Source: a virus. Taken from it: a stretch of DNA of 64,000 nucleotides. The notes beneath the pieces were generated by a model. The model was not told where the DNA came from. It searched no databases and saw nothing but the letters and a program-made list of their open reading frames with translations. Shown here piece after piece: positions 3,310 to 35,700 of the stretch (its first letter is position 1; the number at the start of each line of letters is the position of its first letter). Location of the stretch: the IMG/VR virus record IMGVR_UViG_3300028840_008160, positions 1 to 64,000 of that record; one strand, given 5' to 3'. A program made the translations under genes and the position numbers.

Positions 3310-3852
3310 TTATTTGTTGAGAAGTTTTTGAAGTCGTAAAAACATAACTGAAACTTGTGGATCTTTACTTTCTTCTACATTTGATGTTTCAGCCCAAACG
3401 CATGCAGCTTTCTTTTCTAATTCTGAACCGTCACCTGTAGCTTCGCCACGATCTTTGTCTGTAAGATTTATTGTGTATAGATAGTAAACTGTGTCGGCAG
3501 ATTTTGAAGCAAAACTAGTTCCAAGACTGATTAGTTCATTTTTATCAGCTTTGTAACCACCTTCTTCTTTTAGTTCCATTATAGCAGTGTCTCTAGGGTC
3601 GCCGCCTTCAAATCCACCCGTAATTGAACTAATGTATTGATTTAATCCCCAACAAGGTGTGACTTCATTTCTGAGAAGAAGTTCAATACCAGAAGATGTT
3701 AGTCTGTATGGTAGTAAAGCAATGATTTTGCCTTCGCATCTTGATTCATGCGAGAAAAAATATCCATTAACACCATTTTCGGGATCAATCATTTTTTTGA
3801 GAGCAAGAAATGATTTGTCACCTACTTTTCCTTCGCAGATAGTCTCAATCAT
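3310..3852 (-). CDS. Nudix hydrolase
   Basis: A Nudix box is visible in the middle of the 180-residue protein: TGGFEGGDPRDTAIMELKEE followed by GGY. It has the ELKEEGG core that binds metal and pyrophosphate, but lacks one residue (the first Glu position of GX5E) and has Met in place of the box Arg. Such enzymes cleave nucleoside diphosphates linked to another moiety, ADP-ribose and NADH being common substrates. A strong AGGAGG site precedes the ATG. Given NAD salvage genes and a macrodomain within 10 kb, an ADP-ribose or NAD-type substrate is plausible but not shown. An RNA-cap or mutagenic nucleotide substrate is the main alternative. Confidence 0.8.
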   Translation of the reverse strand: MIETICEGKVGDKSFLALKKMIDPENGVNGYFFSHESRCEGKIIALLPYRLTSSGIELLLRNEVTPCWGLNQYISSITGGFEGGDPRDTAIMELKEEGGYKADKNELISLGTSFASKSADTVYYLYTINLTDKDRGEATGDGSELEKKAACVWAETSNVEESKDPQVSVMFLRLQKLLNK

Positions 3853-3861
3853 TATGTCCTC

Positions 3862-4131
3862 CTAATATGCATCACTAAAGCCGTCTTTGAATAATTGTGT
3901 AAGAATTTTTGCCACTTGTTGTTCGTCTTTTCCGCTAATTGTTATGTTTATTTTTGCGCCTTTGTTAGCAACTAATGTCATGAGATTCATAATACTTCTA
4001 GCATTAACAGACACGCCGGCATTTTTCATTATAACAGTTGACTTGTAGTTACGCAATGTCTCTACTATTAGGGCCGATGGCCTTGCGTGAAGGCCCAGTT
4101 CGTTTGTGATTTTTAGGGTTATTTGTACCAC
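3862..4131 (-). CDS. ptsH: HPr-family phosphocarrier protein
   Basis: This 89-residue protein has the length and motifs of the PTS phosphocarrier HPr. The active-site histidine is H15 in LGLHARPSA, followed by the conserved R17. A Ser at position 46 sits in NARSIMNLMTL, matching the regulatory Ser46 segment of Gram-positive-type HPr. The typical GA.(I)...I.GKDE strand follows. HPr passes phosphate from enzyme I to sugar permeases and in many bacteria regulates catabolism. No PTS enzyme I or II is seen in the window, so it would have to act on host proteins. The start is GTG with GGAG about 8 bases upstream, which places its first 83 bases inside the preceding gene. NPr (nitrogen PTS) is an alternative name. 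Confidence 0.88.
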   Translation of the reverse strand: MVQITLKITNELGLHARPSALIVETLRNYKSTVIMKNAGVSVNARSIMNLMTLVANKGAKINITISGKDEQQVAKILTQLFKDGFSDAY

Positions 4132-5365: not shown

Positions 5366-5587
5366 ATGGACACATCAGTTGGAAATCTACGAAAAATGTT
5401 AGAGAGTTTGCCAGATGAGGCAGACATTGTGACTGAAGATTGGGATGGTGCTGCTATTAGAAGAATGAATCATAGCACAAATGAGCCCTTAGCACTGGAA
5501 GAATTGCTTATGGTTCATGATGGTAGACTCTATATTGTCAATAAGCAAGCTACTGAAAACGAATGTCATCGATGGCAACGAGGTTGA
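5366..5587 (+). CDS. Hypothetical protein, 73 aa, upstream of pncB
   Basis: The 73-residue acidic protein has the pattern VGNLRKMLESLPDEADIV, a helix then strand often seen at the N-terminus of small phage proteins of unknown role. The ATG has no good ribosome binding site, which lowers confidence in the exact start. The stop lies 2 bases before the preferred start of pncB, so the two are likely co-transcribed and coupled. Confidence 0.55.
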   Translation: MDTSVGNLRKMLESLPDEADIVTEDWDGAAIRRMNHSTNEPLALEELLMVHDGRLYIVNKQATENECHRWQRG

Positions 5588-5589
5588 CT

Positions 5590-6774
5590 ATGCAAGGACC
5601 AATAAGCGCAATCGACAATGATCAGTACAAGTTCTCAATGCAAAATGGTGTTGTGAAGTTGTTTCCTCGCGAAATTGTTCGATACGAGTTTTTTAATCGA
5701 GGCAAACATGAGTTTCCGGATGGATTTGCGAAACTTCTGCGTGAACTAGTAGATATGTATGCTGCTATTACATTTGTCAAAGATGACATCGATTTTTTTA
5801 GAGAAAAAGCTTACTATTTTGATCCTGCATATCATTCGTTTTTACGAGGCTACAGATATGATCCGTCAGAAGTGAAAATCATTCAAGAAGGTTACAATCT
5901 TCAAGTAATTGTGGAGGGCTTATGGCACAAAACAATTCTATGGGAAGTGCCGCTTATGGCATTGATCTGCGAATTGTATTATGAAATGACTAAACAACAA
6001 CCAAAAGACAGAAAAGAACGAGAGCAAATCAACAAAGAGAAAGTTATTGCTCTTACAAAATTGTTAATCAAAGCAGCAGAATTTGGAACAAGACGACGGT
6101 TTTCTTTTATTAATCAAAAAGAGTTTTTAATTGATGCTATAACTTATGGCAATTTTGCTGGACATAAACTTCTTTCTGGAACAAGCAATGTATATTTTGC
6201 ACGTGAACTTGATCTTCTATCAATAGGTACACAAGCTCATGAGTGGTACATGTTTCACGCTGCGAAGTATGGTTTTAGAATGGCTAACTTGCTCGGTATG
6301 GAAAACTGGGTTAAAGTATATAATGGAGATTTGGGAATAGTTCTTCCAGATACATTCACCACTGATGCTTTTCTCAAGTCTTTTAATACAATGTTTGCAA
6401 AGCTGTTCGACGGCAGTAGACAAGATAGTGATTGTCCGTTCGCATACACAGATAAATTTGTCAAACATTATCGTGATTTGAAAATTCCGTCACAACACAA
6501 AACAATTGTTTATTCTGACGGAATAAGCAGTGTTAAAACCGTGAGTGATATCAAGGAATATGCAACAGGAAAAGTGCAAGACGGATATGGTATTGGTACA
6601 TGGTTTACAAACGATGTTGGTCTTAAGCCGATGAATATCGTTATTAAGATGACAGCTGCATTTATAAACGGAGTATGGGTACCTACAATTAAGTTGTCTG
6701 ACGCAGCAACGAAGAATACAGGAGATCAGATTCAAATTGGAATTGCTAAACATGAATTAGGGATAAATGTATGA
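5590..6774 (+). CDS. pncB: Nicotinate phosphoribosyltransferase
   Basis: The 394-residue protein matches the length of bacterial PncB (about 400) rather than the longer NAMPT/NadV. Conserved segments are DNDQYKFSMQ (9-18), ILWEVPLMALICE, FGTRRRFS, SGTSN, GTQAHEWY with the phosphorylated histidine at H217, KTIVYSD, YGIGT and NIVIK. The enzyme joins nicotinate to PRPP to make nicotinate mononucleotide, usually driven by ATP. The frame begins earlier (5563), but the ATG at 5590 follows CGAGG and comes just after the upstream stop. With nadE next and pncA 4 kb downstream it forms most of a Preiss-Handler NAD salvage route. Confidence 0.93.
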   Translation: MQGPISAIDNDQYKFSMQNGVVKLFPREIVRYEFFNRGKHEFPDGFAKLLRELVDMYAAITFVKDDIDFFREKAYYFDPAYHSFLRGYRYDPSEVKIIQEGYNLQVIVEGLWHKTILWEVPLMALICELYYEMTKQQPKDRKEREQINKEKVIALTKLLIKAAEFGTRRRFSFINQKEFLIDAITYGNFAGHKLLSGTSNVYFARELDLLSIGTQAHEWYMFHAAKYGFRMANLLGMENWVKVYNGDLGIVLPDTFTTDAFLKSFNTMFAKLFDGSRQDSDCPFAYTDKFVKHYRDLKIPSQHKTIVYSDGISSVKTVSDIKEYATGKVQDGYGIGTWFTNDVGLKPMNIVIKMTAAFINGVWVPTIKLSDAATKNTGDQIQIGIAKHELGINV

Positions 6775-6919
6775 TAGCTTTCATCAGTTTAGTTTTTTTG
6801 TTGATATTATTGACAGACTTGTCAATTACGATAAAGAACATGTAAGAATTAGAATAATAATAGTGGAACAGAATAGGAAAAAAATGTATGGACAACTTGG
6901 TGTATACGACAAAGATTAG
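6767..6919 (+). CDS. Candidate small protein, 50 aa, between pncB and nadE
   Basis: An ATG at 6767 follows AGGG and opens a 50-codon frame ending at TAG 6919. It overlaps pncB by 8 bases and nadE by 32. The predicted peptide (begins MYDSFHQFSFFVDIIDRLVN) has balanced composition with helix-forming and charged residues. A rival reading starts at 6771, overlaps the pncB stop in ATGA and gives a 24-residue hydrophobic peptide. Either or neither may be translated; no family is recognised. Confidence 0.35.
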   Translation: MYDSFHQFSFFVDIIDRLVNYDKEHVRIRIIIVEQNRKKMYGQLGVYDKD

Positions 6920-7796
6920 TGATAGTGCTTATGCTTATGCAGTAAAGAAAATGCAAAACATTTTTCGTCAGTATTTAATTGATAACAATCGAAAAGCTGT
7001 TGTTATTGGAATGTCGGGTGGTATTGATAGTGCTCTAACTGCAGCTTTGGCTGGGCAAGTATGTGCAGAATTAGAAATACCGCTTGTTGGTAGAAGTCTA
7101 CCAATAATGACGAATAAACCTGATGAAGTAGAACGTGCCGCAAGAGCTGGTAAAATATTTTGTTCTAATTTTGGTGAAAAAGATTTAACTAGTGCATATA
7201 CTGCTTTACACGAATTGATGGATGACATTGATGCTAGCAGTGATGAGCAATTAACTTTGACAGTAAAGATTCGAGAAGGTAATATTAAAGCGCGAACAAG
7301 AATGATATATCTTTATGATCTTGCTAGAAAAAATGATGGATTGGTTTTGTCAACTGATAACTATACAGAATTAATGCTCGGTTTCTGGACACTTCATGGT
7401 GATGTAGGCGATTTTGGATTACTTCAGAATATTTGGAAAACAGAAGTATATGAAATGGCAAGATTTTTATGTCGCGCAGGATTAGATGATGATGCTATTC
7501 AAATACTAAAAGACACTATTACTGCTGTTCCGACAGATGGTTTAGGAATTACAAATAGTGATTTAGATCAGCTTGGAGCAGGCAGCTATGAAGAGGTTGA
7601 CAAAATTTTGATGACATATTTATCTGGTTCAAGAAAAGAATATATGAATCATCCAGTTATCATAAGACATTTGACATCTGTTTATAAGAGAGCGAATCCT
7701 GTTAATATAGCTAGAAAAGATATTCTTCCTTCTGTTTATAAGAGAGCGAATCCTGTTAATATAGCTAGAAAAGATATTCTTCCTTTAACAGCATGA
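6888..7796 (+). CDS. nadE: NAD synthetase, ammonia-dependent type
   Basis: The 302-residue protein has the ATP pyrophosphatase P-loop GMSGGIDSAL (41-50) and the motifs EGNIKARTRM, LSTDNYTE, LGF.T..GD and a C-terminal KR..P tail, all typical of NadE. It converts nicotinate adenine dinucleotide to NAD using ATP and ammonia; no glutaminase domain is present. It is somewhat longer than the bacterial enzyme (about 275) because the C-terminal 18 residues with the KR..P signature are exactly duplicated. It follows pncB and precedes a PP2C gene by 6 bases. The missing step between them, NadD, is not in the window. Confidence 0.93.
   Translation: MDNLVYTTKISDSAYAYAVKKMQNIFRQYLIDNNRKAVVIGMSGGIDSALTAALAGQVCAELEIPLVGRSLPIMTNKPDEVERAARAGKIFCSNFGEKDLTSAYTALHELMDDIDASSDEQLTLTVKIREGNIKARTRMIYLYDLARKNDGLVLSTDNYTELMLGFWTLHGDVGDFGLLQNIWKTEVYEMARFLCRAGLDDDAIQILKDTITAVPTDGLGITNSDLDQLGAGSYEEVDKILMTYLSGSRKEYMNHPVIIRHLTSVYKRANPVNIARKDILPSVYKRANPVNIARKDILPLTA
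7677..7784 (+). repeat. Perfect 54 bp tandem duplication in nadE
   Basis: Bases 7677-7730 and 7731-7784 are identical. The repeat keeps frame and duplicates the residues SVYKRANPVNIARKDILP at the C-terminus of NadE. Lack of any difference suggests a recent duplication, or an assembly artefact. Confidence 0.95.
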
Positions 7797-7802
7797 GATT
7801 TT

Positions 7803-8552
7803 ATGTGGATAAAGAATCAAGCAATCATCGTCGGAACTGATCACATTCATACTAAGACTAATCGTCAAGATTATGTATTAACTTATAGTGATAGAGATAT
7901 TACATGCGGCGTTGTGTGTGACGGTTGCAGTTCTGGACAATTTTCTGAATTTGGTGCATGTTTTATTGCAAATTTAGTAATAAAATTATTGAAAACTAAT
8001 CGAGAAGCAACTGCTGAATTGTTGACAGTTGAAATGATGATTGAAATAAAACGTGCTATAGACAGCGTTCTTTTTTTACTTCATGATTATTCAACAACAT
8101 TGCCTATAGATATAGCACATTTTATTGAACATCATTTTTTATCGACATTTGTTTTTTGCATGATAGCTGGTGATAGAATTATCATAGGTCGTTGCGGTGA
8201 TGGCTTGACGATTGTAAATGGTATAGCTGACATTGCTGATCAGAAGAATGCGCCGCATTATATTGCGTATAACAATGTGCCGAAATTTTTGTTATCAACG
8301 TCAGATTTGAATGGCATTGAAATACAGGTATTAAATGAAGTAGAGGTGAACAGCATTGTTATTGGTACAGATGGATTGGTGCCGCTTCTAGAAGCTAATG
8401 AAGGTCATGAATTGTTTGGAACTGAGAAGAGACAGTTACAACGGAAATTTAATGTATGGCAAAATAAAAGACAGTTATTTCATGATGATGTTTCATGCGT
8501 TGTTTTTGAAAAGGTGAAGAATGAAGATAGTATTATGCGGGCAAACGATTGA
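7803..8552 (+). CDS. PP2C-type serine/threonine phosphatase
   Basis: The 249-residue protein has the ordered metal-binding motifs of PP2C enzymes: RQDY (D23), VVCDGCSSG (D40-G41), GRCGDG, IGTDGL (D190) and DDVSC (228-232). It would remove phosphate from serine or threonine residues. It overlaps the kinase gene by 32 bases, a classic pairing of a kinase and its counteracting phosphatase. With a vWA gene downstream the arrangement resembles TerY-P modules described from comparative genomics. Whether it acts on host or phage proteins is not visible. Confidence 0.85.
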   Translation: MWIKNQAIIVGTDHIHTKTNRQDYVLTYSDRDITCGVVCDGCSSGQFSEFGACFIANLVIKLLKTNREATAELLTVEMMIEIKRAIDSVLFLLHDYSTTLPIDIAHFIEHHFLSTFVFCMIAGDRIIIGRCGDGLTIVNGIADIADQKNAPHYIAYNNVPKFLLSTSDLNGIEIQVLNEVEVNSIVIGTDGLVPLLEANEGHELFGTEKRQLQRKFNVWQNKRQLFHDDVSCVVFEKVKNEDSIMRAND

Positions 8553-10383
8553 TTTAGATCAGAGCAAATTACTTGGCAGTGGTGGTGAGGCTAATGTTAT
8601 TAGACATGGCAAATATGCAATAAAAGTGTATCATAAACCGACCGTTGACAGAATTCAGAAATTGACTGATTTTTTTAAGAAGGGATTTAATTTACCAAAT
8701 AATGTTTTCAGTCCTATCGAGCCTGTGACAAGCACTAAAGGTAAGATGATAGGTTTTGCCATGCAGGCAGCAACAAAAAAGTGTCCTGAGTTTATTCATC
8801 TTTACGATACTACGTTTCGTAGCACACAACGTATTAGTTCGGTGGATATTGTTAAGTTATTTATTCACACTAAACAAACGCTGGATGCTATACATCAACT
8901 TGGATTGGTAGTAGGTGATTTTAATGATTTAAATCAACTTTTTGACGATACATTTTCTTCTATCTTTATAGATGTAGATTCTTATCAGTTTGATAATTAT
9001 CCATGTATAGTCGGGACAGATTCATATATCGATCCAAATTTGTATGGATTTGATTTGACTAAGAAGCCGTCATTTTCAAAACAAACTGATTGGTACTCGT
9101 TTGCTGTTTTACTATTTAGAAGTTTATTGTTTGTGCATCCTTATGGAGGATTTTACAAAAAATATAAGACGCTATTTGCACGAGCTCAAAATAATGTATG
9201 GGTATTTGATAGTAATGTTATTAAGCCAAAAATAGGATTACATCCGGAAACATTGAGCGACGAGTTGTTGAGTTATTTTGATGCAATATTCACGAAAGGT
9301 CAACGATTAGATTTACCATTACATCTTTTGCAGCAGCAAACATTTAACGAATGTAAAGTTTGCGGCACGCAATTTAGTCATACACGAGGTAAATGCCCAC
9401 AATGTCAGAAAGTCGCCCCGTTTAAGACTGTTGATGTTAGTAGTATTTTAACACATAAAGTTATTGGCAATGAGAAGTGTGAGACTACAACTGTATTCGA
9501 AGTTAACGGCACAATTTTGTTTGTCAAAGTTGTTGCTGGTATAATAGTAATAGTATCGTATGATGACAGTTCAACAGTGCTTGATACAATTGATACGAGT
9601 GGCTATAAGCAACGTGTAGTGTTGTGGTCTGGGCACAGAAAAGATGTAAAGTTTGATTTTATGTTTCCATCATGTTTGGTTGTTGGGTATGATAAAACAT
9701 TAATATTACTACATATTGGTGATAGTGACGCTAAAGAAATTGTTAAAACAACAACAATGACATTTTTAGATGAACCTATTTTTGGATGTAGTGAAAGTCA
9801 TTTGTATCGTTTGACACCAACGATGATAATGTCATCGCAATTACACCGTTCAGGTCAGTTAATAGAAAAAGGATTAGTATCAGCTGTAGCAAATCAAACG
9901 CAGTTTTTTGTGGGACAAAATCAATTTGGTTTGGGATTCTATAGAGTTTTCAGTGATTATAAATTCTTTACGGTGTCTGACATACAAGGTAGACATGAGG
10001 TAGAATTAGATCAATTAAATGGACAGATGATTGATATTGATGTCAAAGTATCTGTTAATAGTTTGATTTTATTGCGAAAGAGTTTGAATAAAGGTCGGAC
10101 ATATTCACATTGGCATATGATAAATGATAAAGGTCAGGTTGTTGAATCTAAGTCAGAAGAGTCAATTAATTCAGAATTGCTTAGAAACATTCATGGAAAG
10201 GAGCTCGCAGGGTCTAATATCATTCATTCTACAGATGCAGGTATTGCCGTTGAGAAGCATGGTAATGTATCGTTGAAGGTATCAACAGCAGAGATTGTTA
10301 ATACAGGTCATAGATTAATGTTATACAAACACGGACTGTTAGCAGTTTCTGAAAAGAAAATCGTGTATCTTGTTTTGAAGTAG
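8521..10383 (+). CDS. Protein kinase with zinc ribbon and C-terminal beta-rich domain
   Basis: The kinase domain spans about residues 15-265. It has a glycine loop LGSGGEANV (18-26), the ATP lysine K35, a catalytic loop GDFNDLN (D133, N138), a metal aspartate in IDVDSYQF in place of DFG, and TDWYSFAVLLF. A zinc ribbon follows (C278, C281, C292, C295), then about 320 residues of repeated beta strands that look like a propeller. Total 620 residues. The start has AAGG seven bases upstream and lies inside the PP2C gene. This domain order, with an adjoining PP2C gene, fits the TerY-P kinases. Substrates are unknown; a role in rewiring host signalling or defence is inference. Confidence 0.82.
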   Translation: MKIVLCGQTIDLDQSKLLGSGGEANVIRHGKYAIKVYHKPTVDRIQKLTDFFKKGFNLPNNVFSPIEPVTSTKGKMIGFAMQAATKKCPEFIHLYDTTFRSTQRISSVDIVKLFIHTKQTLDAIHQLGLVVGDFNDLNQLFDDTFSSIFIDVDSYQFDNYPCIVGTDSYIDPNLYGFDLTKKPSFSKQTDWYSFAVLLFRSLLFVHPYGGFYKKYKTLFARAQNNVWVFDSNVIKPKIGLHPETLSDELLSYFDAIFTKGQRLDLPLHLLQQQTFNECKVCGTQFSHTRGKCPQCQKVAPFKTVDVSSILTHKVIGNEKCETTTVFEVNGTILFVKVVAGIIVIVSYDDSSTVLDTIDTSGYKQRVVLWSGHRKDVKFDFMFPSCLVVGYDKTLILLHIGDSDAKEIVKTTTMTFLDEPIFGCSESHLYRLTPTMIMSSQLHRSGQLIEKGLVSAVANQTQFFVGQNQFGLGFYRVFSDYKFFTVSDIQGRHEVELDQLNGQMIDIDVKVSVNSLILLRKSLNKGRTYSHWHMINDKGQVVESKSEESINSELLRNIHGKELAGSNIIHSTDAGIAVEKHGNVSLKVSTAEIVNTGHRLMLYKHGLLAVSEKKIVYLVLK

Positions 10384-10393
10384 GAGGATTTTT

Positions 10394-10678
10394 GTGGCTA
10401 AGAAATTGTATGTTGGTAATCTCCCTTGGAGTGCTACTGACGAAAGTCTGCGCGATTTTTGCGCACAGTTTGGTGAAGTTGTATCGGCTCAGGTAATCAC
10501 GGATCGAGAGTCTGGTCGGTCACGTGGTTTTGGTTTCGTCGAAATGACAAATGCTGATGAAGCAATGTCTTTACTTAATGGTAAAGATTTTGACGGCAGA
10601 CAGCTCAAGGTGAATGAAGCCCGTGAGCGGCAGAAACCACAAAGAAGCGGTGGTGAATATAACAGAAACAGATATTAA
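10394..10678 (+). CDS. RNA-recognition-motif (RRM) protein
   Basis: The 94-residue protein is a single RRM with RNP2 LYVGNL (5-10) and RNP1 RGFGFVEM (44-51), plus a short basic tail. It is like the small glycine-rich RNA-binding proteins of bacteria. It binds single-stranded RNA and may help stability or translation of phage or host transcripts. The start is GTG with AGGAGG in front. Codon use is richer in G and C than in the kinase gene before it, as in the pncA and vWA genes that follow, suggesting high expression or a different origin. Confidence 0.9.
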   Translation: MAKKLYVGNLPWSATDESLRDFCAQFGEVVSAQVITDRESGRSRGFGFVEMTNADEAMSLLNGKDFDGRQLKVNEARERQKPQRSGGEYNRNRY

Positions 10679-10730
10679 GCCTAGTTAGCTATACTGAGTT
10701 ATCTTTTAACTTATCTTATGGAGGTGTAGC

Positions 10731-11693
10731 ATGAATAAACCTACGTTTTATGATCCGGCTAAAATAGGTACATTGTACCTTCCACGGCTAGCAGACATAG
10801 AGGCAGAAGCTGCGAAAGTAAGTATTCCGGCTTCTGCCTCTGATCGTCCCGGTGCTAAAGTTGCACTGATGCTTATCGATTTTCAAATTGATTTTTGCCA
10901 TAAGACAGGGTCGTTGTATGTCAATGGTGCAGAAAAAGACATAGAGAATGCTGTCAACTTCATTTTAGCAAATCTTGAGCGGCTTACGAACATTTTTGCG
11001 TCTTTGGATTCACACCTTCTTTTCCAGATTTTCTATCGTACATGGTGGCAATTACAGAACGGCGAGAAGCCTGATTTGTTTACAGAAATTTACAAAGAAG
11101 GTGGTTCTGGCCCAATGGCGAAGAATATTGACAGCGGTGATGTTCGACCGTTGCTTGACCCTGTTAACAGTATCAGCTATACTGAAAAGTTGATGCTTCA
11201 GGCAAATAAGCCTCTTTGCATTTGGCCATATCATACAATGCTTGGTACTCCGGGACAGGCGATGGATCCTGCATTGTACGAAGTTTTGGCTTATCATGCG
11301 TTTGTCAGGAAGACACAGTTGAATTTCTTACAGAAGGGACAAATACCTCAAACTGAAATGTATGGTATTCTCAGCCCTGAGGTAAAGATGCCGAATCATC
11401 CACAAGGCGGATTCAACACTGATTTTCTTAACATTCTGATGAAGCATGATAAAGTTATTATTGCCGGCGAGGCAAAGAGTCATTGTGTGTTGGCTTCTAT
11501 CATGCAGATTCATGAGTTTTTCAGCAAAACAGACCCTGATGTTTTGAAGAAAGTATTCATTTTGGAAGATTGTATGAGTTCTGTGCCTCATCCAGCGATT
11601 GATTTTGAAGCTATTGCTGTTGCTGAATTTGACAAATTCAGAAATTCTGGCATTAACATCGTCAAAAGTACCGATTTGGATCTTACAGCATAA
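10731..11693 (+). CDS. pncA: Nicotinamidase (isochorismatase-like hydrolase)
   Basis: The 320-residue protein carries the cysteine hydrolase set of nicotinamidases: catalytic D50 in LIDFQIDFC, metal ligands D93 and H95 in SLDSH, H168 in WPYHTM.GTPG, the lysine in RKTQ (K194) and nucleophile C252 in GEAKSHCV. It would convert nicotinamide to nicotinate, the substrate of PncB. It is longer than PncA of E. coli (about 213), with an N-terminal 40-residue extension and inserts. A GGAGG site precedes the ATG. Its position near pncB and nadE supports nicotinamide as substrate, but other isochorismatase-family amides cannot be excluded. Confidence 0.82.
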   Translation: MNKPTFYDPAKIGTLYLPRLADIEAEAAKVSIPASASDRPGAKVALMLIDFQIDFCHKTGSLYVNGAEKDIENAVNFILANLERLTNIFASLDSHLLFQIFYRTWWQLQNGEKPDLFTEIYKEGGSGPMAKNIDSGDVRPLLDPVNSISYTEKLMLQANKPLCIWPYHTMLGTPGQAMDPALYEVLAYHAFVRKTQLNFLQKGQIPQTEMYGILSPEVKMPNHPQGGFNTDFLNILMKHDKVIIAGEAKSHCVLASIMQIHEFFSKTDPDVLKKVFILEDCMSSVPHPAIDFEAIAVAEFDKFRNSGINIVKSTDLDLTA

Positions 11694-11722
11694 GATTCAG
11701 ACTTCATATTAAAGGAGGTAAC

Positions 11723-12505
11723 ATGTCATCAAATCCGATTGGCATTACAGATATTAAAAGTCTTGTATCTAATGCCGTAAGTGAGAATGAGGTTAGCGAT
11801 GCTGCAGGTCAGATAATGATAAGCAGCTTGAACGACACAAATATTCTTGGTTGTACCGGTGTTGATGTCGACGATCTTACTGTCGACAATGTGACATTGG
11901 TATCAATCGCGCTAGACGCGTCATATTCAATGTACGAACATGAACAGACTGTTCGTGAAGCATATGATGAATTGGTCATCAAAGCTATGAAAGAATCAAA
12001 GCAGGCGAATTCAATGCTTGTCAGCACTCGAGTCTTTGACGAAACTGATCGAATTCTTTATGGATTCAAGAAAGTCGAGGATGTTGGCAAAGTTGGTAGT
12101 CAATATACAGCACAAGGCGGAGCTACGCTACTTCATGATACAGCTATTGCAGCCATGACTGGCATTCGTGCTTATGCCAAGAACTTGAATGATAGTGGCG
12201 TACAGACAAAATGTATTGTTGTTGTCATGTCAGATGGAGGCAATAATACAGGGACTTTGAGTCCTGATCCTGTCAAGAAACTTGCTGAAGACTGTATCAA
12301 GTCAGAAATGTTCTATTTGGTGTATGTTGGATTTAAACAACACTCATCAGATAATCTTGAGGCAATCGGCAAGTCAATGGGATTTCCCAATGTATTGACT
12401 GCTGCTAAATCTCCTAGCGAAATGAGAAAAGCTATGGGTCTTGTTAGTCAATCAATTATTCGTGCTAGTCAAACACAGGTCGGGCCAAGTAATTCTTTCT
12501 TTTGA
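11723..12505 (+). CDS. vWA-domain protein with full MIDAS (TerY-like)
   Basis: The 260-residue protein has a von Willebrand A fold with a complete metal-ion-dependent adhesion site: DASYS (D65, S67, S69), T135 in GGATLLHD and D171 in VMSDGG. Such domains mediate metal-dependent protein contacts. It lies downstream of PP2C and kinase genes and is followed by an intrinsic terminator, so it probably ends the operon. TerY is the closest recognised type by context. The strong AAGGAGG site and codon use suggest high expression. Confidence 0.8.
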   Translation: MSSNPIGITDIKSLVSNAVSENEVSDAAGQIMISSLNDTNILGCTGVDVDDLTVDNVTLVSIALDASYSMYEHEQTVREAYDELVIKAMKESKQANSMLVSTRVFDETDRILYGFKKVEDVGKVGSQYTAQGGATLLHDTAIAAMTGIRAYAKNLNDSGVQTKCIVVVMSDGGNNTGTLSPDPVKKLAEDCIKSEMFYLVYVGFKQHSSDNLEAIGKSMGFPNVLTAAKSPSEMRKAMGLVSQSIIRASQTQVGPSNSFF

Positions 12506-12530
12506 GTTTACTAATACAATAACATAAAAT

Positions 12531-12556
12531 GGTCGGTTAAAACCGGCCTTTTCTTT
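12531..12556 (+). terminator. Intrinsic terminator after the vWA gene
   Basis: GGTCGGTT pairs with AACCGGCC (8 positions, one G-T pair), followed by TTTTCTTT. It closes the RRM-pncA-vWA group. Confidence 0.8.
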
Positions 12557-12602
12557 GTAGTGTCATTGATTTATTTAATGATTATATTTAAGGAGGTGAT
12601 GA

Positions 12603-13106
12603 ATGATTAAATATCTTAAAGGTGATGCCACAGCACCGGTGTTAGATAAAGCATTGATAGCACACGTTTGTAATAATTGGGGAGGTTGGGGGGCTGGATT
12701 TGTATTAGCTATCTCAAAACGATGGTCTGAACCAGAAAAAGCATATCGTGACTGGTATAAAGGTATAGTAGACAATATCGCACAAGAACGTGACAAGGAT
12801 AAATTTGCATTAGGTAATGTGCAATTTGTGCTGGTGTTTGATAAAGGTATTTGGGTAGCTAACATGATTGCGCAAGACGGTTTCAAGAAAGCTGGCGATC
12901 CAAAAGACAAAGTTTATTTAGATTATGATGCGCTTAACATGACTCTTTGTGAAGTTTGCAAATTTGCAAGAAAGAAAGGTCTGACATTACATATGCCTAG
13001 AATAGGTTGCGGTCTTGCAGGAGGGCGATGGGATTTGATTGAACCATTACTTGAGACTCATTCTGATGATAACAAAGTTGATGTATACGTGTATGATTTT
13101 GAATGA
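12603..13106 (+). CDS. Macrodomain protein (ADP-ribose binding or hydrolysing)
   Basis: The 167-residue protein is a complete macrodomain: GDAT..(V) near residue 7, IAHVCNNWGGWGAGF with the ADP-ribose loop, a SKRW segment and PRIGCGLAGGRWD near the C-terminus. Relatives remove ADP-ribose from proteins or nucleic acids, or dephosphorylate ADP-ribose 1''-phosphate. AAGGAGGTG precedes the ATG. Close to NAD-salvage genes, it may undo ADP-ribosylation by host toxins or recycle NAD breakdown products, which is inference. It overlaps the next gene by ATGA. Confidence 0.88.
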   Translation: MIKYLKGDATAPVLDKALIAHVCNNWGGWGAGFVLAISKRWSEPEKAYRDWYKGIVDNIAQERDKDKFALGNVQFVLVFDKGIWVANMIAQDGFKKAGDPKDKVYLDYDALNMTLCEVCKFARKKGLTLHMPRIGCGLAGGRWDLIEPLLETHSDDNKVDVYVYDFE

Positions 13107-15060: not shown

Positions 15061-15999
15061 ATGACTAGGATTTTGCAAATTGATGGTGGCGGTGTAAGAG
15101 GAATAATTCCTGCGATTATTTGCGCAGAAATAGAACAAAATGTCGGTCGTCCAATTAATGAAATTTTTGATTTAATCACTGGCACATCTACAGGAGCTGT
15201 AATAGGAGGTTCATTGGCATTTGGCATTGCTGCTACTACAGTTAGAGATTTGTATTTAACGGCTGTGCCAGAGCTATTTAAACGAAGACCGTTGTGGAAT
15301 CCTAAGAATTGGTTTAGAGAGAAGTATGACAGAACAGAGTTTCAAGAACAACTACGAAAATATCTTGGTAATCAAAAAATGTCTCAAGCAAAAACAAAAT
15401 ATATGGCGACAGCTTTTAATTTAAGTTCACAACGTACTCATTTTATTAAATCGTGGGACGACAAAGATAATAGATGGAATATAGTTGATGTCATTTCCTG
15501 GTCTGCTTTATCTGCTGCGTTTTATTTTGGAAAGATCAACGTGCCGAATTATAATTGGACACTTACTAATGCAATGAGTGCCACAGAACAAAAGATAGGA
15601 GCTACATTTCAAGACGGTGGACAGGGCATAAGTAATTGTACATTAGGATTTGATTTAGATGAATGTTTAGCAAATGATTGGCATGACGTGTTTATTTTAT
15701 CTATAGGCACAGGCCAACGTAGTATGTATATTCCTTATAAAAAGACAGCAAAAACCGGTTATATTGCACAAGTTATAGATTATATTTTTCAAGCTAGAAA
15801 TGAAGCGACGCCGACGCAATTTTTAACAGCAAAATATGTTGCCAACAAAAGAGAAGATTATATATTGAGTCGATTAGATGCGAACATTTCAAAGAAACAG
15901 GAACCACTTGATTCTATTAAATATGTTGATGAATACGAAAAAATAGGCAATGAATTAGCAAAGAAGGTGCCATATCAATATTTAAAGTCAATAGTGTAA
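15061..15999 (+). CDS. Patatin-like phospholipase
   Basis: The 312-residue protein shows the patatin set: oxyanion loop GGGVRG (9-14), nucleophile S43 in GTSTG and the second catalytic residue D185 in FQDGGQ. It would hydrolyse acyl chains from phospholipids. AAAGGAG precedes the ATG. No signal peptide or membrane helix is seen, so the enzyme would act from the cytoplasm, or be carried in the particle. Roles in lysis, membrane remodelling or attack on the host are possible. Bacterial defence effectors of the same fold exist, but no partner cyclase is present here. Confidence 0.87.
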   Translation: MTRILQIDGGGVRGIIPAIICAEIEQNVGRPINEIFDLITGTSTGAVIGGSLAFGIAATTVRDLYLTAVPELFKRRPLWNPKNWFREKYDRTEFQEQLRKYLGNQKMSQAKTKYMATAFNLSSQRTHFIKSWDDKDNRWNIVDVISWSALSAAFYFGKINVPNYNWTLTNAMSATEQKIGATFQDGGQGISNCTLGFDLDECLANDWHDVFILSIGTGQRSMYIPYKKTAKTGYIAQVIDYIFQARNEATPTQFLTAKYVANKREDYILSRLDANISKKQEPLDSIKYVDEYEKIGNELAKKVPYQYLKSIV

Positions 16000-17165: not shown

Positions 17166-18356
17166 ATGATAACGTCTAGAAATATATTAGGATTTTCTGT
17201 TGCCCCTAACATGTGTAGAGTAATGGAGGCAAATGGATTTTATGCATCAATAATGAAGTCAGAAAAACGAAAAGATGATGATGGCGGATTGCCGTCCGGA
17301 ATGCCTATACCTGTTATGCCAGTTGATTTTTTGAAAGATAGACCAGATTTTTGGGTTGGCGGCATTGGTTCATTTTGCTGCCCTGTTGAGTCTGACTGGG
17401 GTCTGTGGTTTAATTGGACGATGAATATATCTAATATAGCTGTATTGTCGTCAGTAAAAGGAATGAATCCAATTACTGGTCAACGTGTTAATGGGTTAGA
17501 ATTGGAACAATATAAAGAACAATGCCCTATTCATAAAGTGAAATTTCAGCATGGTAAATTTTGTCCTAAATGTAATTTCAAATGGCCAGATCAAAATTAC
17601 ATTACAGAGCCAAATCTATTATATTGGGACGGGTTTAGAACAGCCGATGGTCAAGTTAGACAATTTTATTTTACAGAAGATCTTGCAAAATCTGTCCCTG
17701 AATTGGTCATTGGTAAAGATGATACAGTACCAGCATTTGGGTTTTGTTTTTATATGCCGAAGAAAGTAGAGTCTATAAATTATGAAGGTGGTAAGCGATT
17801 AAAGAATAAATTTCTAGAAATAGAAAAAATGACTGTTTCTTCTGGAAGTAGTTTGAGCATGGGTATGGTGAGAGGAATGTCAATACCTGGCGTTTATACT
17901 AAAATGGTCGATGATACTTATAAACATTCATCAAGTGTATATTATGCATCTTTAGCACCAATTTGTATGGATATGTGTAATAATTCTTATGTCGGATCAA
18001 CTGTAGCTGATGGGGCATCTACAAAGTTTTCGCTCACTTCATCTGCTGATATCAATGCGTTTAATGTAAGTGATGTTAAATTGAGTTTAGAGACGAGTGA
18101 ACTAGCAGATGAGTTAATACTTAGAGAAAGAAGTGAAAATGCTGAAGTTGGAATTGGAGCAGGTGCGAAACTTAAACAATCGCTTATGCAAGATGTAAGA
18201 ACTGTTGATTCATGGCAAAATAAACCTGCAGGAGTGATTAGAGTATATTTTGTTTTTAGAGAGCAATTTGAACGATATGTTAGTGCTGGATTGAATAATT
18301 TAGCTGGTCATAAAGAAGGTTATTTAAGTGATCTTCCTGTAGGAGGTAACAAATGA
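17166..18356 (+). CDS. Zinc-ribbon protein adjacent to vWA gene, 396 aa
   Basis: The ATG at 17166 follows GAAAGG with 7 bases spacing; a GTG at 17163 in the same frame is an alternative. Near residues 119-137 is a CPIH...FCPKC zinc ribbon like that of the previous protein. The rest has beta strands and a Ser/Met-rich middle (SSGSSLSMGM) that might be disordered. The stop overlaps the vWA gene by ATGA, indicating coupled translation and probable partnership. The family is not recognised. Confidence 0.65.
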   Translation: MITSRNILGFSVAPNMCRVMEANGFYASIMKSEKRKDDDGGLPSGMPIPVMPVDFLKDRPDFWVGGIGSFCCPVESDWGLWFNWTMNISNIAVLSSVKGMNPITGQRVNGLELEQYKEQCPIHKVKFQHGKFCPKCNFKWPDQNYITEPNLLYWDGFRTADGQVRQFYFTEDLAKSVPELVIGKDDTVPAFGFCFYMPKKVESINYEGGKRLKNKFLEIEKMTVSSGSSLSMGMVRGMSIPGVYTKMVDDTYKHSSSVYYASLAPICMDMCNNSYVGSTVADGASTKFSLTSSADINAFNVSDVKLSLETSELADELILRERSENAEVGIGAGAKLKQSLMQDVRTVDSWQNKPAGVIRVYFVFREQFERYVSAGLNNLAGHKEGYLSDLPVGGNK

Positions 18357-19084
18357 ATACAGTTGACTTGTTGTTTATAGTTGATGTTACTGGGTCAATG
18401 AGTGGATTTATAAGTGATGCAAAACAAAAAATGAAGTTTGTATTATCTTCACTAAAGAAACAATTTGAAATCGATTTGAAAGTTGGATTGAGTTTATATC
18501 GTGATCATCTATCGCAAGACACATCATTCGTTACAGCAGTTTTTGATTTAGCATCAATTGACGAGGTTAAAGATAAAATCGATAAAATAACTGTTGGTGG
18601 CGGTGGTGATCATCCTGAGGCTGTGATTGATGGAATTATTGATGGCATTACTGATATGAAATGGCGCGAAGATAGTAGAAGGATAGCATTTTTGATTGGT
18701 GATGCACCGGCTCACGGTATGATTTATGGTGAAAGTTGCTGTCAATGTGGTCAAACGTGGGGCAAAGCAGTGGCTTGCGCAGAGAAACATAAAGTGACAA
18801 TTTATTCTATACTGTTAAGCGGCGATGAGCAAGCAAGATTAAATTTCAAACTTATTTCTAATTTTACTGGAGGGTTATTAATTGAGAGTGATAATGCAAT
18901 GGATGTAATAGTTAATACACTTACTACTGAGTTTGGTAATGTTAATTTAGATTCAAAGATTTTAGAAATGATGGCAAATAAATTTAGCAATGAAGATATT
19001 TGTAAGATGTTAAATGTTGATAGAGATGAATTGGCTGACTCAAAGTCTAGAATAGCACAATATGCTAGCACTGTGTTAATATAA
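18353..19084 (+). CDS. vWA-domain protein (alpha-kinase/VWF-kinase type vWA)
   Basis: The 243-residue protein begins directly with a vWA fold. The metal site is DVTGSM (D11, T13, S15), with D117 in LIGDAPAHG. GGGGDHPEAVIDGI is typical of the vWA of eukaryotic-like VWF-kinase proteins. A short C-terminal helical part follows (about residues 195-243). It overlaps the zinc-ribbon gene by ATGA and is followed by a terminator. It differs clearly from the vWA protein at 11.7 kb, so the phage has two independent vWA genes. Confidence 0.8.
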   Translation: MNTVDLLFIVDVTGSMSGFISDAKQKMKFVLSSLKKQFEIDLKVGLSLYRDHLSQDTSFVTAVFDLASIDEVKDKIDKITVGGGGDHPEAVIDGIIDGITDMKWREDSRRIAFLIGDAPAHGMIYGESCCQCGQTWGKAVACAEKHKVTIYSILLSGDEQARLNFKLISNFTGGLLIESDNAMDVIVNTLTTEFGNVNLDSKILEMMANKFSNEDICKMLNVDRDELADSKSRIAQYASTVLI

Positions 19085-30815: not shown

Positions 30816-32759
30816 ATGGCAAATCAAAGTTCTATATATGACGAACAATCAATTAAAACATTAGATGAACGATCACATGTTCGTCTACGACCAGCAATGT
30901 ATATTGGCGACACTGGAATCTTCGGGTTACATCATTTGGTGTATGAAGTTGTAGATAATAGTATCGATGAAATAACTAATGGTTATGGTAACCTCATTAC
31001 TTGTAGAATTTATAATGATGGTTCAGTGTCTGTCGAAGATAATGGTCGAGGTATTCCTGTAGGTGTTCTTAAAGACAGCAAGAAATCAGCTGCTGAAGTT
31101 ATTATGACATCATTACATTCTGGTGGTAAGTTTGGTAATGACAGTTATAAAACGTCATCAGGTCTTCACGGTATTGGCGTATCAGCTGTAAATTTCTTAT
31201 CCGAAGAATTAGATCTTGTAGTTTGGCGCAATGGATTTGAATGGAAACAATCTTACGCTAAAGGTATACCGACAACTGCAGTTGAAAAAGGTTCAAGCAC
31301 TGATAAGACCGGAACATATGTTAAATTCAAACCCGATCACAAAATTTTTCAGACTGTCGACTTTCAATATAAAATATTGCATGATAGGCTGAAAGAACTA
31401 GCTTATTTGAATAAAGGTGTAAAAATCGTTGTCGTCGATGACAATACAAACGAAAAAGCTGAATTTTATTCAGATGGTGGTATTTCTGCATTTGTAGTCG
31501 ACTTAAATAGCAACAAAGAAACTGTGAGTCCTATCATTTATTTACAAGATGAAGTTCAAGTTAAAAACGAGAATGTTGAAAGCGGACCATATAATGTAAG
31601 TTTTGAAATTGCTATACAATATACAAAAACATATTCTGACATTGTTTATTCATTTGCAAATAATGTCAATACACGTGATGGTGGTACGCATTTAACTGGA
31701 TTTAAAAGTGCGTTGCTTGAAGCTATTGTTAAATATGCAGAACGAAAAAAATTATTTAAAGGCCTGCCGGTTAGACCGACTTCCAGAGATGTGCTAGAAG
31801 GATTGACGGCTGTTATATCTGTGAAACTGCCGAATCCTGAATTTGAAGGGCAAACAAAATCCACATTAGGCAATCCAGAAATCAAACCTATTATTAGAGA
31901 TCAAGCACTCGAAGCAATAACGGATTATTTTGGTAAACATGAATCTATTGCAATGGCAATTGCAGAAAAAGTATCGCAAGCATGCATTGCTAGAGAAGAA
32001 GCTAGAAAAGCAAAAGAAACAGTAAGACGGAAAAACATATTATCTACATTAGGTTCGTTGCCTGGAAAACTAGCTGATTGTTCAGATAAAAACCCAGAAA
32101 CATGCGAACTATTTATTGTTGAAGGTGATAGTGCTGGTGGTAGCAGTAAGCAAGGTCGTAATAGGAATTTTCAAGCAGTGTTACCAGTTAAAGGAAAAGT
32201 ATTGAACGTTGAAAAATGCGAATTGGCAAAAGTACTTGACAATGAAGAAATCAAATCATTGATAGCAGCAATAGGCATCGACATTAAAACTGGTGACATA
32301 TCAAAACTTAGATATGACAAAATCATTATTAGCTGTGATGCTGACGTTGACGGAGCTCACATTTCATCATTGTTATTGACACTGTTTTATCGATTTATGA
32401 AACAATTGGTTGTTGATGGTCATGTTTATTTGGCTCAACCACCATTGTATCGTGCTAAATATGGTAAAGAAGATTACTATATCATGGACGATGAAGAACT
32501 AGCTAAATGGAAAAAGACAGTTAAAAATCCAGAGAAAGCGATTATAACACGGTTTAAAGGTTTAGGAGAAATGAATCCTGAACAATTGTCAATAACAACA
32601 ATGAATCCGCAAACTAGAAAATTGGCAAGAGTTGTTGTAGCTGATGAAGACGAAACTGATCGTATTTATTCTATTCTGATGGGTCGAGATATTAATGCTA
32701 GACGAGAATATATAGTTCAAAATGCATTTATTGTTCATGAAGATGAAATAGATGCATAA
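30816..32759 (+). CDS. gyrB: DNA gyrase / type II topoisomerase subunit B
   Basis: The 647-residue protein has the full B-subunit order: GHKL ATPase with YEVVDNSIDE (E44, N48), DNGRGIPVG, SSGLHGIGVS, the QTK loop, and the TOPRIM domain with EGDSAGG (about 436-442) and DADVDG (508, 510, 512). It binds ATP and helps the A subunit cut and pass DNA. Length fits Gram-positive-type GyrB (about 640). GyrB or ParE cannot be told from this subunit alone, but the next gene has a gyrase-specific box. It is first of a gyrB-gyrA-topA run, 11 bases from gyrA. Confidence 0.93.
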   Translation: MANQSSIYDEQSIKTLDERSHVRLRPAMYIGDTGIFGLHHLVYEVVDNSIDEITNGYGNLITCRIYNDGSVSVEDNGRGIPVGVLKDSKKSAAEVIMTSLHSGGKFGNDSYKTSSGLHGIGVSAVNFLSEELDLVVWRNGFEWKQSYAKGIPTTAVEKGSSTDKTGTYVKFKPDHKIFQTVDFQYKILHDRLKELAYLNKGVKIVVVDDNTNEKAEFYSDGGISAFVVDLNSNKETVSPIIYLQDEVQVKNENVESGPYNVSFEIAIQYTKTYSDIVYSFANNVNTRDGGTHLTGFKSALLEAIVKYAERKKLFKGLPVRPTSRDVLEGLTAVISVKLPNPEFEGQTKSTLGNPEIKPIIRDQALEAITDYFGKHESIAMAIAEKVSQACIAREEARKAKETVRRKNILSTLGSLPGKLADCSDKNPETCELFIVEGDSAGGSSKQGRNRNFQAVLPVKGKVLNVEKCELAKVLDNEEIKSLIAAIGIDIKTGDISKLRYDKIIISCDADVDGAHISSLLLTLFYRFMKQLVVDGHVYLAQPPLYRAKYGKEDYYIMDDEELAKWKKTVKNPEKAIITRFKGLGEMNPEQLSITTMNPQTRKLARVVVADEDETDRIYSILMGRDINARREYIVQNAFIVHEDEIDA

Positions 32760-32770
32760 AAGGAGTAAGC

Positions 32771-35700
32771 ATGGCTGATGATGACAATGACATTGTAAAT
32801 GAAGATGAAGACGAAGATATTGTATGTGAAAACGAAGTTGTAAGTGAAGAAGGACAATTTGATGTCAAATCGCACGAAGTGTTGCCGAAGATGTATTTGG
32901 CTTATGCGCTAAGTGCAATTAAAGACAGATCATTACCTGATATACGTGACGGACTAAAACCTGTCGCGAGACGTATTTTGTTCGGAATGCATGAAATGAG
33001 TTTGACTCATTCTAAGCCAACTAGAAAAAGCGCAAGAGTCGTTGGTGAAGTCATGGGCAAATATCATCCTCACGGAGATGGGTGTTGGAGAGGCTCTGCC
33101 AACGTTCTTGAACTCAATGGTAAAATTCATCGTTTAAAAGACCTTGTAGGCAAGCAGATTTGGGTATTGGCTCATGATACAGAGAACAACAAGCCGGTCC
33201 CAGCAATTGCTCATTCATTTAGAATTACAAAGTTTGTCGATGAATTGTATCGTGTGACATTTTGGAATGGTGAAAAGATCGAATTGACAGACAATCATGA
33301 ATTGGAAAAATTATCAGGTGAATGGTCCAGGACTGATGCTTTGAATGTTGGTGATATAATCACTAATGGAATTATCACTAACAACGAATATCCTAAATTT
33401 AGAAGTTCAAATGAACGTATGTCAATAGGAAAGAAACTTCATCATATTGTTGGTGAACATATTCATGGTGAAGCTGAAATTTATCATCATAAAGACGAGA
33501 ATACGAAGAATAATTTGCCTGACAATATTGAACCGGTGACAAAGATCGCTCATGAAAAGCTTCATAAGAATTATGAAAAAGGTCTACGAAAAGGTAATGA
33601 AACTATGTTTCATGGTATCGATGAATTTCGTGAAGCTACAAGAAAGAAAAACTCTGAGATTATTAAAGCAGTGAATCAAAAACATTATCTTTTTAAAGCA
33701 ATTAAGATTCTTAAGATGATGATTGAAGATGATGTAGAACTTACAGAAGAAGTTTATAATAACTATCGAGTAAAAGTATATAATGGTACAACTCTAGAAC
33801 GACTTAAGATAAATGGCCATACTTTTGATGAGGTTGCTGGATATGCCAAGTCAAAAGAGAAACTTAGACTAATTGATACTTCATTAGCAAAAGGTCACAT
33901 TGAAAGTCTTAAAGTTGAAGAAAATAATGCTGATGAACATGTTTCAAGACAAAGTAATGATTCAAGAAAAAAAGGTCATTTACTCTATACGTCTTCAATA
34001 GTAGTTAGTGCATGCCTTGAAAATTATGGTTTAAATTTTAATATCAAAGACTATGATGATATTAGATGCGATTTGTGTGAAACAGATGACAATAATTTTT
34101 ATCCAAAATTTGAAACATTGACAAAATGGTTTGGGATAACTACAATCAATCAATTATTGGATTTAATGTCTCAACGAAATTTAATGATAATTAAGAAGAT
34201 TGAGACATTCAATGTTGATCATGAGCCTGTATATGATTTTACTGTAGATAAATATGAAAATATGTATATGCCTGTTGGCACGAATGAAAGAAACGAAACG
34301 AAACTAATTGTTGCTCATAATTCAATCTATGGTGCAGCGGTGAGGTTGGCACAACCTTTTACTACACGTTATCCGCTTATCATTGGTCAAGGAAATTTTG
34401 GGTCAGTTGAAGATAAACCGGCTGCAATGAGATACACAGAAATGAAAATGTCAGCAATATCAGATATGGTTGTTGCTGATATTGATAAAGCGACAGTTGA
34501 TTTTATGCCCAATTTTGATGGCACACTTAATGAACCCAAAGTTTTGCCGACAAGACTACCGTTGTTTTTATTGAATGGTTCTGTTGGTATTGCTGTTGGT
34601 ATGGCAACTTCTGCGCCGCCTCATAATTTGACGGAAATTATCGATGCTATGTTGACTTTCATTGATAATGAAGACGTCTCAATCTCTGAATTGATGCAAT
34701 ATTTAAAAGGACCTGATTTTCCATCTGGTGCATATATGTTTGACAACGGAATTCGTCAAATATATGAAACAGGTCGAGGGTCTGTAACTATAAGAGCGAA
34801 AGCTGAAATTGTTGATAACGGTAAAAGACAGAACATCATCATTACTGAATTGCCGTATCAATTAGACAAGTCTAAGTTAATCACTAGAATTGCTGATCTT
34901 TATAAGAAGAAAGAGAAGATTGAAGGTATTGATGGCATATCAGATATCAGAGATGAAAGTGATAAGCATGGTACGAGACTAGTAGTTGAATTACGACGCG
35001 GTGTTAGAGCCAAGGCTGTTTTAAACACATTGTTTCGGCGTACTGAATTACAAACAAAACAATCTTTTTTGATGCGAGCGTTGATCGACAATGTTCCAAA
35101 ACTTGTAACGCTTAAAGAAATTTTTGGTCATTTTGTCAATCATAGAAAAGATGTTATCACGAGACGAACTGAGTTTGAATTGAATCAAGCAGAAAAGAAA
35201 GCTCATATATTGCGCGGATATTTAGTAGTTTTTGATAATTTGGATGCAATTCTTGAAGATGTCAAAACTTCTAAGTCAACTGAGATGACATATAAACGTT
35301 TGCAGAAATATAAATTATCTGATGAACAAATCAAGGCAATTTTGGATTTACGCGTGCAACGTCTCGCTCAATTTGAGCGCGAAGCTATTGTGACTGAACA
35401 TAGTGAACTAATGACTAAGATTCACGGATTGAAGCAGTTACTAGATTCGGAAGTTTTAGTATTAGAAAAAATCAAAGAGGAATTGGCAGAAATTAGACAA
35501 CAATTTGGTGATGCTCGTAAAACTAAAATTATCAAAACCAGATCTAGATCAAACTCTGATGATGACGATGATAATAAAGAAGAAAGTTTAGATACAAGTG
35601 ATGAAACAATTGATGAGATTGAGGAGATTCAGGAGGAAGACGTTGTTGTTACTGTAACTCATAATGGATTGGTTAAACGGACGCCGGTGTCAGAATATCG

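Follow-up and report, generated by a model that had tools for sequence, protein, structure and literature searches.

The IMG/VR virus record IMGVR_UViG_3300028840_008160 (329,800 bases) probably specifies a complete four-enzyme, deamidating salvage route to nicotinamide adenine dinucleotide (NAD), the entry enzyme of which, a predicted PncA-type nicotinamidase, is operonically coupled to a triad of proteins that would control it by phosphorylation: a Ser/Thr protein kinase, a PP2C phosphatase, and a vWA domain protein. We analyzed bases 1-64000 of the record (the window), and the record beyond the window was examined by family profile searches and in selected stretches. The window carries genes for the portal, terminase, major head protein, and head protease; together with the size of the record, they indicate a jumbo tailed phage. 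The genes on the + strand between 5366 and 14176 are nearly contiguous (gaps of -32 to +113 nt) and form a single co-directional block in which PncB, NadE, the PncA-like amidase, and a macrodomain are intact, and in which the PP2C, kinase, and vWA genes are interleaved with the NAD genes.

Four predicted steps from nicotinamide to NAD

PncB (5563..6774, +, 403 amino acids), a nicotinate phosphoribosyltransferase (NAPRTase), scored 342.8 bits with the NAPRTase equivalog model TIGR01514 (cut-off 269.6 bits), and its match to PDB 2im5 was at 2e-80. NadE (6888..7796, +, 302 amino acids), an ammonia-type NAD synthase, was above the TIGR00552 cut-off (125.1 vs 63.7 bits) and also matched NAD synthetases of the PDB; the C-terminus of this protein is a tandem repeat of approximately 18 residues, in which SVYKRANPVNIARKDILP occurs twice. 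A first, sequence-only reading of this DNA had counted NadD as missing and proposed a search for it in the rest of the genome. That search overturned the claim: a MazG-NadD fusion near 178 kb combines PF03819 with PF01467 and exceeds the TIGR00482 cut-off (117.5 bits over 112.45). With this protein the record encodes, as judged by family assignment, all four deamidating (Preiss-Handler) steps from nicotinamide to NAD. The MazG-NadD fusion is kept, at 49% identity, in LR756501, a huge phage of 735 kb, and was found in four IMG/VR loci in a search with a two-sequence alignment, while a single-protein scan of viral sequences gave no match; genome G019 has a protein similar to it. In L179, one of these four loci, the next genes after the fusion are a nicotinamidase above its equivalog cut-off and then PncB.

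We did not accept a PF01467 match by itself as evidence for NadD, since CoaD or NMNAT types account for several of these matches. The PF01467 superfamily search of the record returned two genes, the MazG-NadD fusion and a CoaD-CoaE fusion. In LR756500, a NadD was not established, the PF01467 matches being CoaD and an unassigned 653-amino-acid protein. CoaD-CoaE fusions, corresponding to the final two reactions of coenzyme A (CoA) synthesis, are present in the record itself (G000) at approximately 308 kb (L002:1474-2637), in LR756500 (L018:757-1917), and in LR756501 at approximately 604 kb; the CoaD part is over its cut-off in G000 and LR756500, and the CoaE part is clear in G000.

The sequence-only reading had also proposed that a nicotinamidase/PncB/NadE path would differ from the NAMPT-based routes of phages, and this view held, PncB being the sole gene found in a PF04095 search of the record and of the nicotinate type. 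According to two surveys, one covering 21,191 viral proteomes and the other 224 jumbo phages, phages make NAD by routes built from NadV, NadM, and NadR, with at most three genes, and no further enzymes are listed (PMC9503650, PMC7824862). Like this NadV/NadM/NadR salvage (KVP40 type, NARP2), the window route would provide phage-encoded NAD from nicotinamide, but the former is an amidated two-step route whereas the latter is deamidating, and the pair of a NAMPT and an NMN adenylyltransferase was not found in the record, where the PF01467 genes are NadD and CoaD. NARP1, composed of Adps and Namat, rebuilds NAD from its breakdown products (PMC12774641, PMC13232231), as we propose for the window route. 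However, NARP1 starts from ADP-ribose and nicotinamide and needs two steps, and the Adps plus Namat pair was not found in the record. Because the single PF04095 gene is of the nicotinate type and no phosphoribosyl pyrophosphate (PRPP)-synthetase-like (Adps-like) gene was detected, the predicted route is distinct both from NARP1 and from NAMPT-based routes.

Predicted nicotinamidase and possible ADP-ribose-handling neighbours

The PncA-like gene (10731..11693, +, 320 amino acids) scored under the family cut-offs (PF00857, 23.3 against 27; NF008623, 26.2 against 174 bits), and the protein represents a distinct long subfamily, with a nicotinamidase fold in its structure model. The residues at the catalytic triad positions (D50, K202, and C252) and at the metal-site positions (D93, H95, and H168) were invariant in all 52 relatives, and 5 of these 6 positions align with the Mycobacterium tuberculosis PncA in a weak PDB alignment. 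K202 is presumably the catalytic lysine, an assignment that we took from the known D-K-C pattern of the family. For the structure model (predicted local distance difference test score, pLDDT, of 95.4), the 24 best PDB fold matches were all nicotinamidases; they come from Drosophila, Leishmania, yeast, one archaeon, and bacteria, and rank above biuret hydrolases and isochorismatases. In Bacillaceae, this long subfamily heads operons of the composition PncA-PncB-NadE and PncA-PncB-NadD-NadE, and in locus L061 the PncB, NadD, and NadE proteins encoded beside PncA are all above their cut-offs. The window PncA groups with the Bacillaceae operon copies in a supported clade of a quick tree (Shimodaira-Hasegawa-like approximate likelihood ratio test, SH-aLRT, 95). 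Because of the invariant residues, the fold match, and the operon context, the prediction that the PncA-like gene encodes a nicotinamidase is well supported.

The macrodomain (12603..13106, +, 167 amino acids) matches the solved macrodomains PDB 2fg1, 2afc, and 5e3b at 1e-38 to 1e-40, the match to BT1257 and 5e3b being full-length. PncB, NadE, and PncA with intact motifs next to a macrodomain, as the sequence-only reading had it, were thus borne out, the first two by their cut-offs, PncA by residues, structure, and context, and the macrodomain by its PDB matches. The Nudix hydrolase placed upstream fared less well: the gene is there (3310..3852, -, 180 amino acids), but PF00293 is below its cut-off (18.4 against 21.1 bits) and the Nudix box (GGFEGGDPRDTAIMELKEEGGY) is degenerate, with M at the position of the consensus R, so that we regard its product as a degenerate Nudix-like protein and a possible accessory.

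A kinase-phosphatase-vWA triad linked to PncA

The kinase, PP2C, and vWA partners of PncA had been overlooked in the earlier reading. The PP2C protein (7803..8552, +, 249 amino acids; PF13672, 3e-19) has its metal-site residues D40, D133, D190, and D228/229 invariant in 21 relatives. The Ser/Thr kinase (8521..10383, +, 620 amino acids) adopts a kinase fold in the model, with K35, D133, and D151 invariant in 42 relatives; CxxC pairs are visible in the sequence of this protein, which we describe as having a zinc ribbon, and its C-terminal beta-rich domain is modeled with low confidence, the Foldseek matches listed being kinases. In the vWA protein (11723..12505, +, 260 amino acids; PF00092 at its cut-off), the metal ion-dependent adhesion site (MIDAS) is intact, and D65, S67, S69, T135, and D171 are conserved in 25 relatives. 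Hence, a kinase with zinc ribbon and beta domain, a PP2C, and a vWA protein are encoded together, as in TerY-P-like triads. The vWA protein gave no match to the PADLOC TerY model, and PADLOC did not convincingly place the triad in any defence system. A second vWA protein of the window (18353-19084) has a weak PADLOC TerY match.

To quantify the linkage we used 56 IMG/VR loci recruited by PncA alone. Within 8 kb of PncA, vWA was found in 45 loci, PP2C in 44, the kinase in 44, and all three in 42; at 90% identity, the triad was present in 37 of 48 clusters (window included). The vWA gene, lying downstream, starts at most 150 nt from PncA in 33/56 loci (median gap 38 nt), and in most loci it immediately follows PncA. 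Among 12 comparison loci not recruited by the long PncA, none had PP2C or kinase and 2 had vWA. No other neighbours of the nicotinamidase gene are as conserved as the kinase, PP2C, and vWA genes, which belong to a system with PncA. Defining the triad as vWA plus PP2C or kinase, and sorting isolates by record title, we found it beside the long PncA in 0/28 isolate bacterial loci, 15/52 loci of metagenome-assembled genomes (MAGs), and 43/56 viral loci. The bacterial loci with the nicotinamidase-triad module were all metagenome-assembled (L071, L083, L090, L105, L117, and other MAG contigs), and these contigs may be misbinned phage.

In 25 module-carrying virus records, recruited mostly by PncA, a NAPRTase-family (PF04095) gene was present in 17 and NadE in 16. 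The module is contiguous with PncB and NadE in L138, L165, G049, and L203, the last of which has, all on the same strand and within approximately 12 kb, Macro, PncA, vWA, PP2C, kinase, PncB, NadE, NadD, and a Nudix-like gene, its NadD matching NadD models below their cut-offs. A macrodomain beside PncA occurs also in a few relatives. Using the major head protein to define the window's own phage lineage, we found PP2C, kinase, PncA, and vWA at 36-69% identity in G055 and G048, with a macrodomain nearby and, in G048, PncB and NadE approximately 9-13 kb from the module. In G049, the genes stand in the row PncB-NadE-PncA-vWA-PP2C-kinase with a distant version of PncA (32% identity). In the remaining records on the major-head-protein list, many of them fragments, a full-length PncA match was not found. 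That the gene set was rebuilt from different versions in phages sharing a capsid argues for selection on the set.

Several observations weigh against a route coupled to the triad. PncB or NadE was present in the 8-kb flank of only 15/56 loci, and many of the viral records are fragments; NadD is approximately 170 kb away from the block and has the motif TIGH, a form seen in CoaD, and not HxGH; and no PRPP synthetase was found in the record with a PF13793 search. The distance of NadD and the degenerate Nudix box would fit relic genes in a large genome, with domain matches and no working pathway. We consider this very improbable, as the active sites are conserved in all other members and the gene set is retained in same-capsid phages with different versions. 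The scarcity of PncB or NadE near most modules would also agree with a PncA-kinase-PP2C-vWA unit that is a separate signalling or superinfection-exclusion device, its amidase acting on another small amide and PncB and NadE being adjacent by chance. In actinobacteria, a kinase (with zinc ribbon and beta domain)-PP2C-vWA triad stands beside GAP1-N2 GTPases, and conflict systems that lack NAD genes contain such triads (PMC7159879). That triad has the same three proteins and the same extra domains as the phage one but is linked to GTPases, whereas the phage triad is linked to the nicotinamidase and NAD genes and is found mostly in phages. The presence of the amidase subfamily in Bacillaceae NAD operons, its nicotinamidase fold and metal site, and the contiguity of the module with PncB and NadE in the 4 loci named above make a separate device unlikely. 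In the literature, with the TerY papers covered in part, we found no report linking a kinase-PP2C-vWA triad to a nicotinamidase.

Proposed function and related gene sets

The catalysis and phospho-control that we infer, and their anti-defence or other physiological role, would be as follows. PncA would convert nicotinamide to nicotinate, PncB nicotinate to nicotinate mononucleotide (NaMN) using host PRPP, the MazG-NadD fusion NaMN to nicotinate adenine dinucleotide (NaAD), and NadE NaAD to NAD with ATP and ammonia drawn from the host. The triad most likely switches or scaffolds PncA by reversible phosphorylation. The most likely use of the pathway would be to refill NAD from the nicotinamide that NADase defences of the host, or enzymes of the phage, set free, while the macrodomain would clear ADP-ribose derivatives. 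It is quite possible, though short of probable, that this is plain auxiliary metabolism, in which a large phage makes NAD, and CoA by way of CoaD-CoaE, for itself because the host synthesizes too little of these cofactors, with the triad as a general regulator and no special link to NAD-depleting defences. The CoaD-CoaE fusions of the same record and two huge phages, which no defence accounts for, point in this direction, whereas the macrodomain by PncA, shared with few relatives, fits ADP-ribose handling better than bulk supply. The anti-defence and ADP-ribose-recycling roles suggested in the sequence-only reading stay conjectural, as the evidence does not distinguish them from plain NAD supply and the Nudix box is degenerate; between outlasting NADase defences and plain NAD supply the odds seem to us roughly even. 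More tentatively, the route and its triad may represent a widespread large-phage device in which a dedicated kinase-phosphatase-vWA switch gates a nicotinamidase that feeds a complete viral NAD route, recycling nicotinamide from host NADase defences on demand.

If so, a phosphorylation-switched entry enzyme would bring a further level of regulation into the contest over NAD. In the literature, phage NAD reconstitution consists of short amide-keeping routes, while the complete deamidating set recurs in different jumbo-phage lineages. An NAD-control device in such form is not described there; priority for the four-step route is limited by Li et al. 2024 (Microbiome 12:268), which, going by its title, reportedly concerns NAD systems of gastrointestinal jumbo phages and may already report this route.

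Bacillus phage G (NC_023719) encodes an isochorismatase-family amidase (gp275), PncB (gp277), NadD (gp281), and NadE (gp283), and resembles the window and its relatives in this clustering and in a Nudix gene nearby. It differs in its short amidase, its stand-alone NadD, and its PncB, which belongs to the TIGR01513 equivalog family, and the kinase-PP2C-vWA triad was not found in the 16-kb stretch. Since its PncB is of a different equivalog family, phage NAD pathway sets were probably assembled more than once. The set of phage G is annotated gene by gene, and a discussion of it as a pathway was not found in the literature; this phage is cultured and has the complete set, which makes the pathway part directly testable. 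Sinorhizobium phage Phosso encodes an amidase, an NMNAT-type adenylyltransferase, PncB, and NadE, and clustered pathway sets are present in LR756501 and the human fecal phage contig MT835470. In LR756501 (735 kb, L011:3002-11475), inspection showed that PncA, NadE, and PncB are accompanied by genes for a PnuC-like transporter and a NadR-like adenylyltransferase, giving two NAD entry points. MT835470 (L013:7127-12645), an unannotated gut phage contig, has a compact PncA-PncB-NadE-NadD-Nudix cluster.

Within the block of the window, a small RRM-type RNA-binding protein identified by inspection (10394..10678, +, 94 amino acids) is encoded between the kinase and PncA, and was not found in the module of the relatives. 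A stand-alone HPr protein of the phosphotransferase system (PTS) is encoded at 3862-4131 (-; PF00381, 1e-24), and a 46% identical copy lies near the module in relative L234. By inspection, we also noted a patatin-like phospholipase at 15061-15999 and, consecutively at 30816-38634, GyrB-like, GyrA/ParC-like, and topoisomerase I-like genes.

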